Origin: Candidatus Desantisbacteria bacterium CG1_02_49_89
GTDB lineage: Bacteria; Desantisbacteria; UBA1551
DNA length: 5,457 nt
Direction of reading: 5' to 3'
Assembly: GCA_001871075.1 (NCBI GenBank)
Contig: MNUP01000119.1
Coordinates: forward strand, 1-5,457
Shown here: in pieces, positions 367 to 5,257 of the stretch
How the letters are laid out: each line of letters starts with the position of its first letter
Position numbering within the stretch: position 1 is the first letter of the stretch
Position numbers and translations under genes: made by a program
Notes under the pieces: model-generated
Told to the model about the DNA's origin: nothing
What the model saw: the letters and a program-made list of their open reading frames with translations, nothing else
Database searches by the model: none

Positions 367-876
367 TCAATTATGCTTTTTCATGGAAGGCGTTTCTCCG
401 AACGTGTTTTTCATCTTTTTGCCGGGCGCCGGGCCCTTGCCCATCATTTCTTCTCTCATTTTCTTCATCTCTTCCTGCGCTTTCTTCATAGCTTCCATGT
501 CTATTTTGATCTCGGCTTCGCCCTTGAGCTTCAGGTCCTTGTCATATTTATACATTTTGTTTCCTATTATAAGGACCACGCCGGCGTCAGAGGTGGCGAC
601 CATTTCCCTGCCCCCCATCATAGGCCCTGCGGCGCTCATGCGGTTCTGCTGCATTCCCTGCGCCATCCTGCCCTGCATCATCTGTTTTTGCATCTGGCCC
701 ATCTTCTGGCCCTGCATCTCCGCGCCCTGCATTCCCATCCTGGGATGCATCATTCCCTTTTCCACCATTCCTCTGCCTTTGCACATCGGGCAGGTGTCCA
801 TATCGCCCATCTGCGCGTAAGCGCCTGCGCCTAACATTATTGCCGCGCCGATCACAAGAATCAAAATCTTCTTCAT
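367..876 (-). CDS. Secreted methionine-rich protein with a CxxCxGxG zinc-knuckle motif, function unknown
   Basis: The gene encodes 169 residues. An N-terminal signal peptide is clear: MKK, a hydrophobic stretch at about residues 4-19, and an AYA-Q cleavage site after residue 21, so the product should be exported. Next comes CPMCKGRG (residues 29-36), the half-site seen in DnaJ-type zinc fingers; a second half-site is absent, so zinc binding would need a partner molecule. Residues 41-92 are rich in Met, Gln and Gly with many MxxM spacings. About 30 of 169 residues are Met. Residues 91-120 form a short beta-like piece (VATSDAGVVLIIGNKMYKYD) resembling one blade of a propeller. Residues 126-146 are a charged helix rich in Met, Glu and Lys. 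The ATG at 874-876 has AAAGGGGGG four bases upstream. The Met clusters suggest soft-metal (copper or silver) binding or redox buffering, which is inference. I do not recognise a named family. Confidence 0.85.
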   Translation of the reverse strand: MKKILILVIGAAIMLGAGAYAQMGDMDTCPMCKGRGMVEKGMMHPRMGMQGAEMQGQKMGQMQKQMMQGRMAQGMQQNRMSAAGPMMGGREMVATSDAGVVLIIGNKMYKYDKDLKLKGEAEIKIDMEAMKKAQEEMKKMREEMMGKGPAPGKKMKNTFGETPSMKKHN

Positions 877-880
877 ATAA

Positions 881-889
881 CCCCCCTTT
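881..889 (-). promoter_or_regulatory. Ribosome binding site AAAGGGGGG for the methionine-rich gene
   Basis: AAAGGGGGG lies four bases before the ATG at 874-876. It is an unusual Shine-Dalgarno form with a run of six G instead of AAGGAGG. The same nine bases precede the peptidase start at 4640. Confidence 0.7.
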
Positions 890-894
890 AGATT

Positions 895-1002
895 CAGAGA
901 GTCAGAGAGTCAAAGTGGTTACTCTCTGTGCCGTAGGGTCATTAACTTGGTTCTGACCCGTAGGTCCCTGTGTTGAGTTCCAGTTTTATCGGAACTACAG
1001 GG
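895..1002 (-). other. Three consecutive stem-loops in the leader of the methionine-rich gene
   Basis: Read toward the gene, the stems are: ACAGGG-GGAACT type arms at 966-981 and 991-1002 (six plus six pairs with a 4-nt bulge); GGGTCA/TGACCC at 936-941 and 954-959; and CAGAGAGT/ACTCTCTG at 903-910 and 921-928. The last left arm has a second copy at 895-902 that could pair with the same partner, so two alternative pairings exist within 20 bases of the ribosome binding site. The near-direct repeat CGTAGGGTC / CGTAGGTCC (933-940 and 960-966) also sits here. A structured 5' leader is one reading; an accumulation of intergenic repeats is another. Confidence 0.4.
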
Positions 1003-1004
1003 AA

Positions 1005-1020
1005 CTCCGTGCCTCTGTGG
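1005..1020. repeat. CTCCGTGN tandem 8-mer words, two copies
   Basis: CTCCGTGC (1005-1012) is followed by CTCTGTGG (1013-1020) and then TTAATTTTTA. The same word family recurs at 4739-4778 and 5212-5257, always in this orientation. The rest of the spacer, 1021-1132, is AT-rich with a weak GTATATA/TATATAC inverted repeat (1074-1080 and 1099-1105). I see no gene in it. Confidence 0.6.
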
Positions 1021-1132
1021 TTAATTTTTACGCTTCTATATAATTAGACAGGGTATTCTGCGAAAAACTTGCTGTATATACGCTATTTTAGACAGCCATA
1101 TATACCGGAAGGTTTAAAGCGGGCAAAGCCGG

Positions 1133-2230
1133 CTATTTTATTTCCTCGATATTATATTTAATTGAACAGGGGTAGGCCTCGGAAAGGTAATTAAGCATCA
1201 GGTAGGGGTCTTTGCCGTGGATCTTCTCAAACAGGTGTTTTCCCTTTTCAACCAGTTTCCTGCCTGGCGGCAGGCCTTTGGGCAGGACCTTTTCCTTGTC
1301 GATCAGGTCAAGGCTGGCCGTGTCGATCGCCGCGATGTCCGATGAGCCCAATATCCCTATATCCGGCACAAGGCTTGCCGTGGAGAACCCCCAGCAGTCG
1401 CAAAACACCGTGATGTTCATAAGGAAATTAATGAAAAGCAGGTTCTCGGGCTTGTATTTTTTCAGGAACGCGGCGGTCACAAGCGCCATCCCTTTCGAAA
1501 AATCCTCGAATCTCCTGCCTTCCATTTTTATAGCGCCTTCCGGGCATATCATTTCGCAGTGCTGGCAGTACGTGCAGTTGTGCAGGAAGAAGTTGATAAT
1601 CTTCTTTTCTTTGTCCGGCTGTATCGCGTCAGTCCTGCAGCTTTCCTTGCATTTCAGGCAGAACTTGCATTTTGACTTGTCATACTTAAGGCCGCCTTCA
1701 AGCGAGTGGAGCTTACCCCGCGTTTCCCCGGGAACAGTGCCCATCGCAATATTTTTCAAAGCCCCGCCAAACCCGCAGTCACCGTGCCCCTTCACGTGCG
1801 AAAGGTCTATGAAGAAATCGCAGTCAACCGCTTCGCCTCCGAATATCGCCTCATCCAGGTGCTTGAAACCGATCTTTTCCCTGTAGGTATATCTGCCTGA
1901 TTCCCCGAAGCACGATACGATCGGGCATCCCAGGGTCTGCGGTGTATAGCCGCGCACAACCCCCGGGCCCGGGTCCCCGTCCATTACCTTTATCTGCTTT
2001 GCTCCGGATTCCCGCAGCTCGTCCACAAGCATCCTCACGAAAAAAGGATGGACCGTGGTGTAACCAATGCCCCCGCCCAGGTGCATCTTTATACCCACGC
2101 TTTTATCCTTCACCCTTTCCGCAAGCGCGAATTTCTTCAGCATACGCTTGAACTTAGCGGGCAGGGTCTTGTTCCCCTCAAGGGCCTCTATAGCTATATC
2201 CGCGAAATAAACTATCGGCGCGTCCGGCAT
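1133..2230 (-). CDS. DUF362 domain protein with two [4Fe-4S] ferredoxin motifs
   Basis: The gene encodes 365 residues, a normal length for DUF362 proteins fused to a ferredoxin module. The DUF362 core is seen at residues 46-90 (KMHLGGGIGYTT, then MDGDPGPG) and 137-170 (DFFIDLSHVKGHGDCGFGGALKN). The ferredoxin insert lies at about 185-235. Its first set is C188-x2-C191-x2-C194-x3-C198, followed by Arg instead of the usual Pro. The second is C219-x2-C222-x2-C225-x3-C229-Pro. A further CDC pair (277 and 279) lies in the conserved C-terminal part. There is no signal peptide, so it should be cytoplasmic. The family is common in anaerobes and its reaction is unknown; electron transfer is the reasonable expectation. 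The start ATG has GGAG five bases upstream. The aldo/keto reductase lies upstream across a 187-bp repeat-filled spacer, and co-transcription from the promoter at 3568-3596 is possible. Confidence 0.93.
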   Translation of the reverse strand: MPDAPIVYFADIAIEALEGNKTLPAKFKRMLKKFALAERVKDKSVGIKMHLGGGIGYTTVHPFFVRMLVDELRESGAKQIKVMDGDPGPGVVRGYTPQTLGCPIVSCFGESGRYTYREKIGFKHLDEAIFGGEAVDCDFFIDLSHVKGHGDCGFGGALKNIAMGTVPGETRGKLHSLEGGLKYDKSKCKFCLKCKESCRTDAIQPDKEKKIINFFLHNCTYCQHCEMICPEGAIKMEGRRFEDFSKGMALVTAAFLKKYKPENLLFINFLMNITVFCDCWGFSTASLVPDIGILGSSDIAAIDTASLDLIDKEKVLPKGLPPGRKLVEKGKHLFEKIHGKDPYLMLNYLSEAYPCSIKYNIEEIK

Positions 2231-2247
2231 AATTTCTCCATATATTC

Positions 2248-2275
2248 AATTATGAATTATGAGTTATGAATGAAG
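2248..2275. repeat. Heptamer repeat AATTATG, about four units
   Basis: The units are AATTATG (2248-2254), AATTATG (2255-2261), AGTTATG (2262-2268) and a degenerate AATGAAG (2269-2275). They lie just upstream of the ribosome binding site of the DUF362 gene. Related heptamers occur at 3607-3620, 3687-3707 and 5135-5162. Confidence 0.65.
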
Positions 2276-2389
2276 GAATCAGGGCTCCCTCCCAACAAGA
2301 TTGGCGGGTCTTCGAGAAGCCCTGAGTTATCCGCCCCGATGTCCATCGGGGCGAGACCTCGCCCCAAAGGGGCGGGCAATAGATTCCTT
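2273..2389. repeat. Compound hairpin element flanked by an 8-bp inverted repeat
   Basis: The outer arms are AAGGAATC (2273-2280) and GATTCCTT (2382-2389). Inside are three stems: TCAGGGCT/AGCCCTGA (2279-2286 and 2318-2325), CGCCCCGAT/ATCGGGGCG (2332-2340 and 2345-2353) and CGCCCC/GGGGCG (2360-2365 and 2369-2374). A fourth pairing, GGGGCGA/TCGCCCC (2348-2354 and 2359-2365), would break the second and third stems. No U-tract follows, so it is unlikely to be a simple terminator for the reductase gene. It fills most of the spacer between the reductase and the DUF362 gene. It could be a dispersed palindromic element, an mRNA processing or stabilising structure, or an attenuator. Confidence 0.6.
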
Positions 2390-2417
2390 GCAGTTGCGTT
2401 GATACATTGACACGCAT

Positions 2418-3533
2418 TTACGCTGTTTCTTTCAAGGTCAACGCCACTTCTTTCAGCTGTTCTGAGATCTTTATTTTCTGCGGGCACTTCTCCTCGCATT
2501 TTTTGCATTCCTTGCAGAACTCGGCGCTCGCCTTCCTTTCCGTAAGGTGCTTGTAAACGTGCTTCGCGTGTTCCTTAAGCCCGTACAGCCGGAAAGAGTT
2601 CATGGCGGAGAAATTCGCAGGTATGTTCACGCGGTTCGGGCAGGGCATGCAGTATTTGCAGTCCGTGCAGTAAAGGTCGGCGAGCTTTTTCTTTTCGTCC
2701 AGCGCGGCCTGTATGCCTTTAAGTTCTTTTTCAGAAAGCGGCTTTTCGCTTGACGCGACCGCGCAGTTCTCCTCGACCATTTTGACCGTGTTCATACCCG
2801 ACATCGCGGTTGAAACGCCCTGGTTCGAAAGCACGAACCTCAGCGCGAGCTCAGCGGTGCTTTTTGAGCCGCCTGGTATAAGGCCCTGGATCTCGGGTGA
2901 CGGCGAGCCGAGTTTACCGCCTGCGACAGGGCCCATGACCGCGATGCCAAGCCCGTTATTATGCGCGTATTCTATAACCTTCTCGTTGACCCTGTCCAGC
3001 AGGTTGTACTGCAGGATCATTCCCTCAAGATATCCTTCCTCAAAAAGTTTTATCATATTCTCCGGGGTGTCATGGCAGGAGATGATCAGGTGCTTCAGGA
3101 TACCTTCTTTTTTCGCTTTCAGGGCTTCTTTCAGCCAGTTGTTCTCAACCTTTTTGCTCTCTAAATACGCGTCCATGCGCACGTCATGCCAGACCGCGTA
3201 TATGTCAAAATAGCTTAACTGCATCCTTTTAAGCGAAAGCTCCAGTTTCCTGCGCCAGTGGGTATCCGTGTAGTTTTTGTCCCACATCGGATTTTTGCTG
3301 GACACGATGATCTTGTCCCTGGGGTATTTTTTGAGCGCCTTGCCGCACACGAGCTCGCTTTCCCCGTATACGAACGCGGTGTCCAGGAAATTCACTCCAA
3401 GGTCAAAGGCGCGCTGTATCACCGCGATCGCCTCGTCCTCCAGTATCACGTTCATTATATTCGGAAGCCTCATCGCCCCGAACCCCAGCGCCGAAATCTT
3501 CAAGCCGGTTTTCCCGAAATCCCTGTATTGCAT
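2418..3533 (-). CDS. Aldo/keto reductase with C-terminal double [4Fe-4S] module
   Basis: The gene encodes 371 residues. Residues 1-270 form the NAD(P)H-dependent aldo/keto reductase barrel, opening with MQYRDFGKTGLKISALGFGAMRLP-type sequence. The catalytic tetrad is complete: D51, Y56, K80 and H116 (in VWHDV). Residues 285-355 are the iron-sulfur tail found in one branch of the family: C289-x2-C292-x2-C295-x2-C298-Pro and C340-x2-C343-x2-C346-x3-C350-Pro. There is no signal peptide, so it should act in the cytoplasm. The substrate is unknown; the Fe-S tail suggests that electrons pass between NAD(P)H and a ferredoxin-type partner. The DUF362 protein downstream could be one, by inference. The ATG at 3531-3533 has AAAGGAG four bases upstream and a strong promoter about 35 bp upstream, which supports this start. 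Confidence 0.95.
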   Translation of the reverse strand: MQYRDFGKTGLKISALGFGAMRLPNIMNVILEDEAIAVIQRAFDLGVNFLDTAFVYGESELVCGKALKKYPRDKIIVSSKNPMWDKNYTDTHWRRKLELSLKRMQLSYFDIYAVWHDVRMDAYLESKKVENNWLKEALKAKKEGILKHLIISCHDTPENMIKLFEEGYLEGMILQYNLLDRVNEKVIEYAHNNGLGIAVMGPVAGGKLGSPSPEIQGLIPGGSKSTAELALRFVLSNQGVSTAMSGMNTVKMVEENCAVASSEKPLSEKELKGIQAALDEKKKLADLYCTDCKYCMPCPNRVNIPANFSAMNSFRLYGLKEHAKHVYKHLTERKASAEFCKECKKCEEKCPQKIKISEQLKEVALTLKETA

Positions 3534-3545
3534 CCCGCTCCTTTA

Positions 3546-3601
3546 TTAACTTGACTTGAATGGATTTAATATATCATATACCGGATAAAAAGTCAAGTTA
3601 A
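3546..3601. repeat. 12-bp inverted repeat enclosing the reductase promoter (possible operator)
   Basis: TTAACTTGACTT (3546-3557) and AAGTCAAGTTAA (3590-3601) are perfect inverted copies 32 bp apart. The right arm contains the -35 box of the minus-strand promoter and the left arm falls at or just after the expected start point. Because the left arm carries TTGACT on the + strand, a second, weaker promoter facing the other way is possible (TTGACT 3551-3556, then TCATAT 3574-3579 at 17 bp). A repressor or activator pair-site is the simplest reading. It is not a terminator: the loop is 32 bp and AT-rich. Confidence 0.55.
3568..3596 (-). promoter_or_regulatory. Sigma70-type promoter for the aldo/keto reductase gene
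   Basis: On the minus strand the -35 box is TTGACT (3596 to 3591), the spacer is exactly 17 bp, and the -10 box is TATATT (3573 to 3568). Each hexamer matches consensus at five of six positions. Transcription would start near 3561, leaving a leader of about 28 bases that contains the AAAGGAG site. This is the best promoter in the window. Confidence 0.75.
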
Positions 3602-3606
3602 ATAAT

Positions 3607-3620
3607 AGTTATGAATTATG
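3607..3620. repeat. Heptamer repeat AGTTATG AATTATG, two units
   Basis: Two adjacent 7-bp units, the same words as at 2248-2268 and in the same orientation. They lie right beside the inverted repeat around the reductase promoter, in the spacer after the peptidase stop. Confidence 0.55.
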
Positions 3621-3662
3621 AGTCAACGGCAAGGCCTTTGATTTAAATTAAAACTATTGTTT

Positions 3663-3707
3663 AACCATGAGCAATGAGCCGCGTTCAGCTATGAGCTATG
3701 AGCATTT
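3663..3707. repeat. Heptamer repeat AGCTATG, degenerate units up to the peptidase stop codon
   Basis: Units AACCATG (3663-3669), AGCAATG (3670-3676), a diverged stretch, then AGCTATG (3687-3693), AGCTATG (3694-3700) and AGCATTT (3701-3707) keep a 7-bp register. The array stops exactly at the TAA of the peptidase gene (3708-3710). The words are the A[AG][TC]TATG type seen elsewhere in the window. Confidence 0.6.
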
Positions 3708-4640
3708 TTATTCTATACTGTCTATTTCCAGTATGCCGGCCAGCGCCAGCTTTGTTGCCAGGAACACATTTTCAATGTCAACCCTGTCAGCAGAGTCACC
3801 TTCTTTGTGGTATTCGGGGTCAGCGTAGGGATAGGAACCGAACAGGGCGATAGCCGCGGTATATCCCGCCTTAACAAACGAGCCGTCATCGTCCCCGGGC
3901 GCCTGCCTCTTGTATTCCGTGTGCTTCAGGCCTATGCCGTAGTCGGTGTTGGCTTTTGTCACGATCTCCGCGAGCCTTTTTCCGTCCGGCTCGGTGGTGT
4001 AAAGCACGGCGCTTGTTTTGTTTCCCGCGTCAATGTCCGCCTGGGATTTCCCGCCGATAGTGTCAATGTTAAAAACGGTTGTGATATTATCGCCGCGCGC
4101 CTTCGCCCTTTCTGCCGCGGCAACACTTGTCCAGGGCACGTGTTCCTCGTTGCAGAAGACAAACCATATCGAATGCCTTGCCCGGTAATCTTGCAGGACG
4201 CGGCTTATTTCAAGGCTTGCGACTGTCCCGGTGGCGTTGTCATAAGCCGCGGGAGAATCAACCCAGCTCTGGGAATCCTTGTGGGAAATGACAACCATGA
4301 TCTTTTCAGGGAACTCAACCCCTTTCTTTCTGGCGTAAATGTTATAAGCGGTATGCCAGGGTGATTCAGCGGGGGGGAATGAATACTGGTGGGATTTTGG
4401 CTTGGATTCGTCCCTTGAGAACGCCTTTACCTTTAATTCTTCTTTTTCAACCGTGTACCCGTATTCCTCAAGCCTTGCCTGCAGGAAATCGTCTGCTTCA
4501 TCCAGGGTGTTCTTGCTGTGGCCCGGAACCGTATAGTTCACCTTGCGGAAAGGCAGGGGGTCTTTCGCGATATAGTATAAGTGTTTTTTGAGATTTTCTG
4601 AGCTTACTTTTTTTAGCATTTCCGAAATTGCTTCATTCAT
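3708..4640 (-). CDS. M28-family zinc peptidase, no visible signal peptide
   Basis: Residue numbers use the ATG at 4638-4640 (310 residues). An earlier TTG at 4665-4667 would add nine residues, but it has no ribosome binding site and would place AAAGGGGGG inside the gene. All M28 metal ligands can be placed: H120 (in SHKD), D134 (in AAYDNATG, bridging), E166, D193 (in NIDTIGG) and H278 (in EYHKEGDS). E165, in NEE, is the catalytic base. Residues 10-60 match the region before the catalytic domain in this family. Known relatives cleave N-terminal residues or related amide bonds and are often exported, yet the N-terminus here (MNEAISEMLKKVSSENLKKH) is charged and not hydrophobic, so a cytoplasmic site is likely. 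The substrate is unknown. No dedicated terminator was found after the stop, only heptamer repeats. Confidence 0.9.
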   Translation of the reverse strand: MNEAISEMLKKVSSENLKKHLYYIAKDPLPFRKVNYTVPGHSKNTLDEADDFLQARLEEYGYTVEKEELKVKAFSRDESKPKSHQYSFPPAESPWHTAYNIYARKKGVEFPEKIMVVISHKDSQSWVDSPAAYDNATGTVASLEISRVLQDYRARHSIWFVFCNEEHVPWTSVAAAERAKARGDNITTVFNIDTIGGKSQADIDAGNKTSAVLYTTEPDGKRLAEIVTKANTDYGIGLKHTEYKRQAPGDDDGSFVKAGYTAAIALFGSYPYADPEYHKEGDSADRVDIENVFLATKLALAGILEIDSIE

Positions 4641-4643
4641 ATT

Positions 4644-4652
4644 CCCCCCTTT
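4644..4652 (-). promoter_or_regulatory. Ribosome binding site AAAGGGGGG that sets the peptidase start
   Basis: AAAGGGGGG ends three bases before the ATG at 4638-4640. It favours that codon over the upstream TTG at 4665-4667. The spacing is short if the last G is counted, but normal if pairing uses AAGG.GG with a wobble. The same string precedes the methionine-rich gene. Confidence 0.65.
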
Positions 4653-4670
4653 GATATACGGCCGCAAATG

Positions 4671-4778
4671 TATTTGTTTCGCGGTTTCGAAGCTTAAAGG
4701 TTTCGCGTTTAAAAAATTTCAGTACCTTCACCGGCAAAATCCGTGTTTACCCGTGTGCATCCGTGGTTATTCGTTTGG
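4671..4778. repeat. Word-repeat spacer: TTTCG block and CCGTG 10-mers
   Basis: TATTTGTTTCGCGGTTTCG (4671-4689) recurs, one base shorter, at 5185-5202. Positions 4739-4778 form four 10-bp units: ATCCGTGTTT, ACCCGTGTGC, ATCCGTGGTT and ATTCGTTTGG. These belong to the same word family as the 8-bp units at 1005-1020 and 5212-5235. The spacer shows no gene and no convincing promoter for the peptidase. Confidence 0.6.
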
Positions 4779-4783
4779 CCTGC

Positions 4784-5116
4784 TCACGCCCATTTGCGGA
4801 ACATAAAGAACGCGGCGGCAACCATAAAAAGGAACCCGACTACGTAGTTCCACCTGAAAGGTTCTTTGAGATATGTAACCGAAAAAACGGCGAACACGAT
4901 AAGCGTGATGATCTCCTGTATGGTTTTCAGCTGAGCGGCTGAGAACTGGTAGTGCCCGATGCGGTTCGCAGGCACCTGGAAGCAGTATTCGACGAACGCG
5001 ATAAGCCAGCTTACCAGGATTGCTATCCACAAAGGCGAGTCCTTGTATTTCAGGTGCCCGTACCACGCTATCGTCATAAATATATTTGAGATCAAAAGCA
5101 GTATGACCGTCTTCAT
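4784..5116 (-). CDS. DUF486 (DMT-like) four-helix membrane protein
   Basis: The gene encodes 110 residues, the full usual length for the DUF486 family, which is related to small drug/metabolite-type transporters. Four hydrophobic segments are seen at about residues 2-20, 28-46, 65-83 and 88-106. Hallmark stretches are SNIFMTIAWYGHLKYKD (10-26), FVEYCFQVPANRIG (41-54) and FSAAQLKTIQEIITL (58-72). It should lie in the inner membrane, probably as a dimer or larger assembly given the small size, which is inference. No substrate has been established that I can name. The ATG at 5114-5116 has GGAGGA within nine bases upstream. It stands alone, with spacers of about 140 bp on both sides, so its link to the peptidase or the propeller gene is not clear. 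Confidence 0.95.
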   Translation of the reverse strand: MKTVILLLISNIFMTIAWYGHLKYKDSPLWIAILVSWLIAFVEYCFQVPANRIGHYQFSAAQLKTIQEIITLIVFAVFSVTYLKEPFRWNYVVGFLFMVAAAFFMFRKWA

Positions 5117-5134
5117 TTCTCCTCCATTGTATTT

Positions 5135-5162
5135 GCTGGATGCTGAAAGCTGAATGCTGAAT
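5135..5162. repeat. Heptamer repeat GCTGAAW, four units
   Basis: Units GCTGGAT (5135-5141), GCTGAAA (5142-5148), GCTGAAT (5149-5155) and GCTGAAT (5156-5162) form a tandem 7-bp array just upstream of the DUF486 gene. The sequence differs from the TATG heptamers, but the period, the setting and the strand are the same. Confidence 0.7.
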
Positions 5163-5184
5163 GTAATAATCCGTGGTTGAAATA

Positions 5185-5257
5185 TATTTGTTTCGGGTTT
5201 CGTGGAAAAATCTCCGTGCCTCCGTGTCTCCGTGGTTTATCGTGTGTAATCGCGTGG
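5185..5257. repeat. TTTCG block and CTCCGTGN tandem 8-mers
   Basis: TATTTGTTTCGGGTTTCG (5185-5202) repeats the block at 4671-4689. It is followed by three perfect-register 8-mers: CTCCGTGC (5212-5219), CTCCGTGT (5220-5227) and CTCCGTGG (5228-5235). More diverged TCGTGTGTAA and TCGCGTGGTTA words run up to the stop codon of the propeller gene at 5258. An isolated CCGTGGTT also occurs at 5171-5178. Confidence 0.65.

Follow-up and report, generated by a model that had tools for sequence, protein, structure and literature searches.

The window analysed here is the entire 5457-bp contig MNUP01000119.1 (G000:C32) of Candidatus Desantisbacteria bacterium CG1_02_49_89, the draft genome of which comprises 2.48 Mb. 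The minus-strand genes code for a hypothetical protein, a DUF362/Fer4 protein, an aldo/keto reductase with Fer4, an M28 peptidase, a DUF486 protein and a partial PD40 protein. The five spacers between these genes contain arrays of short tandem words, e.g., ATTATGA, AGCTATG and units built on CCGTG. An earlier note on this DNA had described 7-, 8- or 10-bp tandem words in all five spacers, all oriented opposite to the genes and none entering a coding region. With a probability of about 0.78 we consider these arrays to be the terminal arms of two classes of small mobile elements, gene-less and decayed copies of which fill the spacers.

Spacer arrays and their orientation

Tandem Repeats Finder (TRF) returned arrays in every spacer of the window which the earlier note had named, near the places given there (Table 1). 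The genome statistics derive from 80 stretches which cover 1.02 of the 2.48 Mb (L050-L069, L088-L147); 20 of these are mostly contigs with repeat matches, the other 60 were picked by contig number. Genes were called with a simple codon-score caller which recovers the genes of the window. It missed some long genes; therefore long spacers were excluded from the spacer statistics. The genes of this sample are strongly co-directional, with 15 strand switches in 623 adjacent called gene pairs; a cruder count of open reading frames (ORFs), shadow ORFs included, gives 81 of 617. Periodicity was determined from exact 6-mer matches by lag in spacers, dinucleotide shuffles and coding slices, and arrays were identified by TRF.

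In the spacers the match counts at lags 7, 8, 9 and 10 are 1191, 547, 429 and 391, compared to 29-35 in the shuffles and 30-61 in the coding slices. At lags 7, 8, 9, 10, 14, and 21 the spacer excess is about 10- to 35-fold over expectation, and coding regions are near background. For periods 7, 8, 9 and 10, TRF reports 274, 122, 89 and 104 spacer arrays, respectively; periods of 1-6 are almost absent. At least one array of period 7-10 is present in 72% of the spacers of 60-400 bp. The 7-10-bp array pattern is genome-wide and well above chance. Spacer base composition, as represented by the shuffles, does not yield such an excess. On average 26% of the length of a spacer belongs to arrays, versus 0.8% of genic bases. 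Weak TRF arrays of other words and mostly of other periods are located within ORFs of the window (444-496, 1269-1292, 2491-2516, 4584-4602).

The uniform orientation against the genes was seen in a small sample and is not a general rule. Scored by gene strand the AATTATG family is balanced, 20 opposite and 19 same. Scored by spacer half a different picture emerges: genome-wide, sense-forward arrays reside in the stop-codon half of a spacer and reverse arrays in the start-codon half, i.e., the arrays face inward. The numbers are 26:2 vs 2:39 for ATTATGA (Fisher p 2e-14), 28:0 vs 0:21 for the GTGTCAAC family and 44:7 vs 13:24 for CCACGG-type arrays; the best families reach p ~1e-14. The arrays of the window conform to this rule. 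The arrays are paired inverted arms. An orientation bias as a signal of transcription or replication was rejected because the families are balanced with respect to the genes and arm position explains the orientation; the transcription-linked process which had been suggested as a cause is thus not needed.

The ATTATGA family illustrates the pairing. Within 250 bp, 22 pairs are convergent, 1 is divergent and 0 are same-strand, and the spacing is mostly 69-103 bp. The element consensus is a near-palindrome of about four heptads, RTCAACNRCAAGGAATTTTATTTAAATAAAATTCCTTGCNGTTGAY, and about four heptads reversed. The unit orders of left and right arms differ, each order is conserved, and the elements are present in both orientations. 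This is the appearance expected of copies of a master element. Gain of a word in both arms through copying of one arm was considered and is unsupported within this family. For one intact element of this type a strong RNA fold is predicted (z -8.35). The cores share nested hairpins, CAGGGCT..AGCCCTG, CCGCCCCGATG..CATCGGGGCGG and CCCGAAGGGATCCCTTCGGG (window 2290-2390; L114, L118, L127). As a separate observation, AATCAC[CT]GTAATC words of own-genome spacers form divergent pairs (15 '-+' vs 0 '+-'), frequently right before start codons (e.g., L125:1658-1842); they also adjoin the GxxExxY gene of own-genome contig C45 (L107).

Comparison within the phylum comprised a single further genome. ATTATGA words are absent from the order-level relative G001, and in other phyla only sporadic matches exist. 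In the unrelated genome G265, perfect ATTATGA arrays are long and all share one direction (C207, near 12064 and 38989). TCCGTG-type words, by contrast, are found again in many other phyla; arrays of them are present in 44 of 290 genomes, with high copy numbers in several. Where the surroundings were read, these often are inverted pairs in which the arrays are outermost and the interiors variable.

Gene families between the arms and insertion polymorphism

Three families of small genes common in such genomes, PDDEXK_3 (GxxExxY), 23S_rRNA_IVP (S23) and Y1_Tnp, were tested for array flanks. In unrelated genomes the arrays on the two sides of GxxExxY genes are inverted and consist of words such as CCACGGAGACACGGAG, CCGCCGATGAACGCCGAT and CCGCAAAGGCGCAAAGG. 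Around the genes of the four-helix-bundle protein 23S_rRNA_IVP, inverted arrays are built from words such as GGAGTTA, TCGGGTT, AGTTACA and GCGTGTA. Among 88 pooled loci, the inverted flank score exceeded the 95% level of 42 control ORFs in 39 of 46 IVP and 38 of 42 GxxExxY loci; against the 95% level of a 234-ORF control (12.7), 36 of 46 and 34 of 42 pass. When loci not used in framing the hypothesis are considered, 20/25 IVP and 19/23 GxxExxY pass. The arm periods differ by family. IVP arms have periods of 7 (42 arms), 8 (8), 6 (2) and 9 (2), GxxExxY arms of 8 (9), 9 (15) and 10 (8), never 7. The own genome has 11 IVP and 5 GxxExxY matches; of the genes tested, 6 of 8 IVP and 4 of 5 GxxExxY genes score for inverted flanks within the highest 4% of a control set of 624 genes. 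A structural relative of IVP is 2gsc (the query was approximate, a few letters off the L308 protein), and PF05635 is similar to the Avd protein of diversity-generating retroelements (PMC10053308). A search for a relative of the GxxExxY protein with a solved structure found none.

Filled and empty sites can be compared. An IVP element is present in plasmids of Trichormus variabilis and Scytonema NIES-4073 and absent in about 98% identical regions of Nostoc linckia, Fremyella and Tolypothrix. The filled site reads AAAAA-GTAAT-[insert]-GTAAT-TAACAA, i.e., GTAAT flanks the insert on both sides as a clean 5-bp target duplication; the empty plasmid site is AAAAAGTAATTAACAA, also given as AAAAAGTAATTAACAAATAA. 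The left arrays of the near-identical inserts in Trichormus and Scytonema differ by exactly 14 bp, that is two heptads. Other junctions, among them cas6-cas4, nrdB-nrdA, a TraM gene and an integrase gene, also hold IVP inserts which relatives lack. The orthologous site of the TraM junction in Nostoc ATCC 53789 is occupied by related arms that form a gene-less pair. In a type I-D CRISPR locus on plasmid pANA02 of Anabaena sp. 90 (L355), an IVP element separates cas6 from cas4, and the cas6 stop codon apparently is supplied by the array of the element. In Bacteroides finegoldii a GxxExxY element is located between radA and the next gene and begins 3 bp past the stop codon; in Parabacteroides distasonis it is absent and 13 bp separate the two genes. 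In the family of G060 an empty-site comparison for GxxExxY retained the flank on one side only. At the ATTATGA elements of the own genome no target duplication is evident.

The spacers of the window

In four of the five spacers, arrays of the window align with arms of gene-bearing copies from the own genome; the scores in Table 1 are to be read against a shuffled 95% level of 12-12.5. No IVP gene was found in the window; gene-bearing relatives elsewhere do carry S23p/IVP inside inverted arms. The unlike words in the two arms of spacer 2231-2417 may reflect an arm exchange or two overlapping elements.

Table 1. Parts of the window spacers, with the corresponding TRF arrays
Feature	Position	Strand	TRF array (period)	Basis and remarks
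8-bp tandem array (AGAGTCAG)	890..912	.	890-912 (8)	TRF; class uncertain; no gene-bearing match found
ACTCTCTGTGCC, left piece of 8-bp CCGTG/CTGTG array (GxxExxY class), split by REP doublet	921..932	+		Sequence; other copies arranged likewise
GTAG-tagged REP doublet, GTAGGGTC..GACCC and GTAGGTCCCTG..CAGGGA, nested in array	933..1003	+		Dispersed family
Right array piece and bases after it	1004..1035	+		Aligns with right arm of GxxExxY element C114:9957 in own genome (score 19.5)
ATTATGA heptad arm, start-proximal, IVP class (7-bp)	2248..2271	+	2248-2271 (7)	Class from unit length alone
Element core: inverted pair AAGGAATC ... GATTCCTTG, more hairpins nested within	2272..2395	.		Sequence; predicted fold z -3.8
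Octad arm, GTGTCAAC family, stop-proximal, 2 bp off stop codon; word unlike other arm	2396..2415	-		Sequence, family rule
Half core (GTTATGAATTATGAGTCAACGGCAAGG...) with one ATTATGA-type arm, lacking the partner arm	3607..3650	+		
AGCTATG heptad arm, stop-proximal	3660..3705	+	3687-3703 (7)	Aligns with both arms of IVP element C56 in own genome (20.5; 17/17 exact)
10-bp CCGTG array, stop-proximal	4738..4770	+	4739-4765 (10)	Aligns with both arms of GxxExxY element C114:7409 in own genome (score 22)
TGCTGAA heptads, start-proximal	5134..5163	+	5134-5163 (7)	TRF; IVP class from unit length alone
8-bp CCGTG array (CTCCGTGCCTCCGTGTCTCCGTGG)	5211..5248	+	5212-5234 (8)	Aligns with both arms of GxxExxY element C114:9957 in own genome (30.5, 20)

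The doublet at 933-1003 has the attributes of a repetitive extragenic palindromic (REP) sequence, i.e., a GTAG tag, a palindrome, multiple copies and a gene of a REP-associated tyrosine transposase (RAYT) in the genome. The family has about 40 matches in the own genome and none in 40 other genomes, and the own genome has 10 Y1_Tnp (RAYT-type) matches. The doublet tends to come right after GTGCC in a CCGTG/CTGTG/TTCGTG array, which gives the impression that it targets the arrays (window; L053, L063, L109, L125). RAYT/Y1_Tnp as owner of the arrays was rejected: the Y1_Tnp flanks are simple REP-type palindromes of the GGGGACAGG type without tandem arrays. The doublet belongs with the REP/RAYT elements, a separate family which is nested within the arrays and is not their cause.

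Explanations and known systems

In the proposed scheme each mobile element would have an inverted pair of arms, in each of which a short word is repeated in tandem about 3-5 times. A 23S_rRNA_IVP gene and mostly 7-bp words would characterise class 1, a GxxExxY gene and 8-10-bp words class 2. The elements would occupy gene junctions, where one arm adjoins a stop codon and the other precedes the next start codon. Most own-genome copies would be gene-less, frequently nested or one-armed, and fill the spacers like miniature inverted-repeat transposable elements (MITEs). The encoded proteins probably participate in movement, the gene-less copies would move in trans, and the array presumably is the recognised end. 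Most likely, the arms accumulate in spacers because the elements survive only between genes. Insertion at tight gene junctions creates the spacer, and hence arrays abut stop codons and stay out of genes. Shared words at unlinked places, inverted pairs and the gene association agree with a dispersed element, the candidate of the earlier note which proved right.

Several points weigh against this view. The clean target duplication is one case and the other junctions are less sharp. The comparison of B. finegoldii with P. distasonis spans different genera with about 73% identity. The controls are of modest size, and the loci of both families are best-scoring matches and not a random sample. In the own genome the IVP copy C55 (L267) is flanked by heptad arrays of the same direction, not inverted, and the copy C34 has no clear arms. 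An 8-bp GTGTCAAC word upstream of the IVP gene C25:5738 (L091, at a contig edge) demonstrates that 7 bp is not strict. For the ATTATGA and TGCTGAA arms no gene-bearing copy was found; the class of these arms is given by unit length. Finally, no element was seen moving and no transposition was observed.

It is unlikely, yet has to be weighed, that the elements are mobile and the IVP and GxxExxY genes are passengers which profit from intergenic insertion, with another enzyme moving all of them. IVP has no known catalytic domain, and the few gene-bearing copies in the own genome are set against hundreds of arrays. On the other hand, two gene families track two unit-length classes over many unrelated genomes, which is unexpected of free cargo. 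Host regulatory sites, i.e., paired sites to which a global regulator binds or hairpins which act in termination or mRNA stability, appear improbable as the origin of the arrays; such roles have been proposed for Geobacter metallireducens and cyanobacterial STRRs. The paired opposite-strand tandem words of G. metallireducens, which include TCTCCGTS[Y] (PMC2700814), the stop-proximal placement of the arrays and the strong predicted fold of the intact element would fit. Presence or absence among close relatives, the many different words, the two unrelated genes carried and the inconstant site do not. The host may make use of arrays after insertion.

Replication slippage, another cause suggested beforehand, would expand 7-10-bp units in place via a length preference of the polymerase, with coding regions purged. 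It is a published proposal for heptamer repeats, as cited in PMC4679880, and would accommodate the excess of 7-bp units, the exact two-heptad difference between near-identical inserts and the variation of 2-3 heptamers among Coxiella strains (PMC4990558). As the main cause simple slippage was rejected and must be rated very improbable. The arrays do not behave like microsatellites: identical words are found at many unlinked places, they are paired in inverted fashion with fixed spacing and unlike conserved arms, they are linked to two gene families, and whole inserts are absent at orthologous sites. Slippage stays as a minor, local process which changes copy numbers.

A more far-reaching idea extends the mobile-element reading and is tentative, in our judgement rather doubtful. 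The S23/Avd-type bundle and the PD-(D/E)XK-type GxxExxY protein might each define a phylum-crossing mobile class, the ends of which would be recognised through unit length and inverted symmetry and not through a fixed sequence, with the word drifting between copies and remaining the same in both arms. Recognition by length and symmetry is a guess. If true, such ends would be of a new type among mobile elements, and the puzzling heptad and CCGTGG repeats across bacteria would be accounted for. We know of no matching transposase for tandem-array ends.

To our knowledge, 7-10-bp spacer words such as cyanobacterial short tandemly repeated repetitive sequences (STRRs), the TAACTGA repeats and the Geobacter sites have been catalogued for decades with no agreed cause. 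In open-access papers we found none which links intervening sequences (IVSs), STRRs and paired repeats or describes GxxExxY elements, and a search by repeat sequence strings likewise found nothing. One of the closest known systems is the 23S rRNA IVS of Coxiella burnetii. It has an S23p/IVP gene, terminal inverted repeats and three tandem heptamers ahead of the ORF, the number of which varies between strains (PMC4990558), the same parts as in the gene-bearing IVP elements. The Coxiella IVS interrupts helix 45 of the 23S rRNA, from which RNase III excises it (PMC4990558), whereas the elements described here, including the arrays of the window, reside between protein genes and are mostly gene-less; in addition, here a second class exists with GxxExxY and longer units.

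Cyanobacterial STRRs are usually 7-bp, hairpin-forming and intergenic, and their function is unknown (PMC2670836). The 7-bp part of the arrays here likewise consists of tandem heptads in spacers, and the filled and empty IVP sites are from the same cyanobacterial group; STRRs, however, were described without an owner gene. In Geobacter metallireducens paired multicopy sequences on opposite strands and at variable distance contain 7-8-bp tandem words (PMC2700814). The opposite-strand arrangement is alike, the interpretation as global-regulator sites differs. The TAACTGA repeats of Beggiatoaceae are intergenic heptad direct repeats scattered over distant taxa (PMC4679880). In contrast to the arms reported here they are nearly all direct, and most are positioned just upstream of start codons.

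As to MITEs, the elements are equally short and gene-less, with terminal inverted repeats and many intergenic copies, and the same-word gene-bearing copies for four window spacers would be candidates for an autonomous parent element. Unlike in MITEs, the ends are tandem arrays with a word which varies by family. Two named gene families with distinct unit lengths, together with insertion polymorphism, turn these separate puzzles into one testable mobile-element idea which bears on what the common S23/IVP and GxxExxY proteins do.

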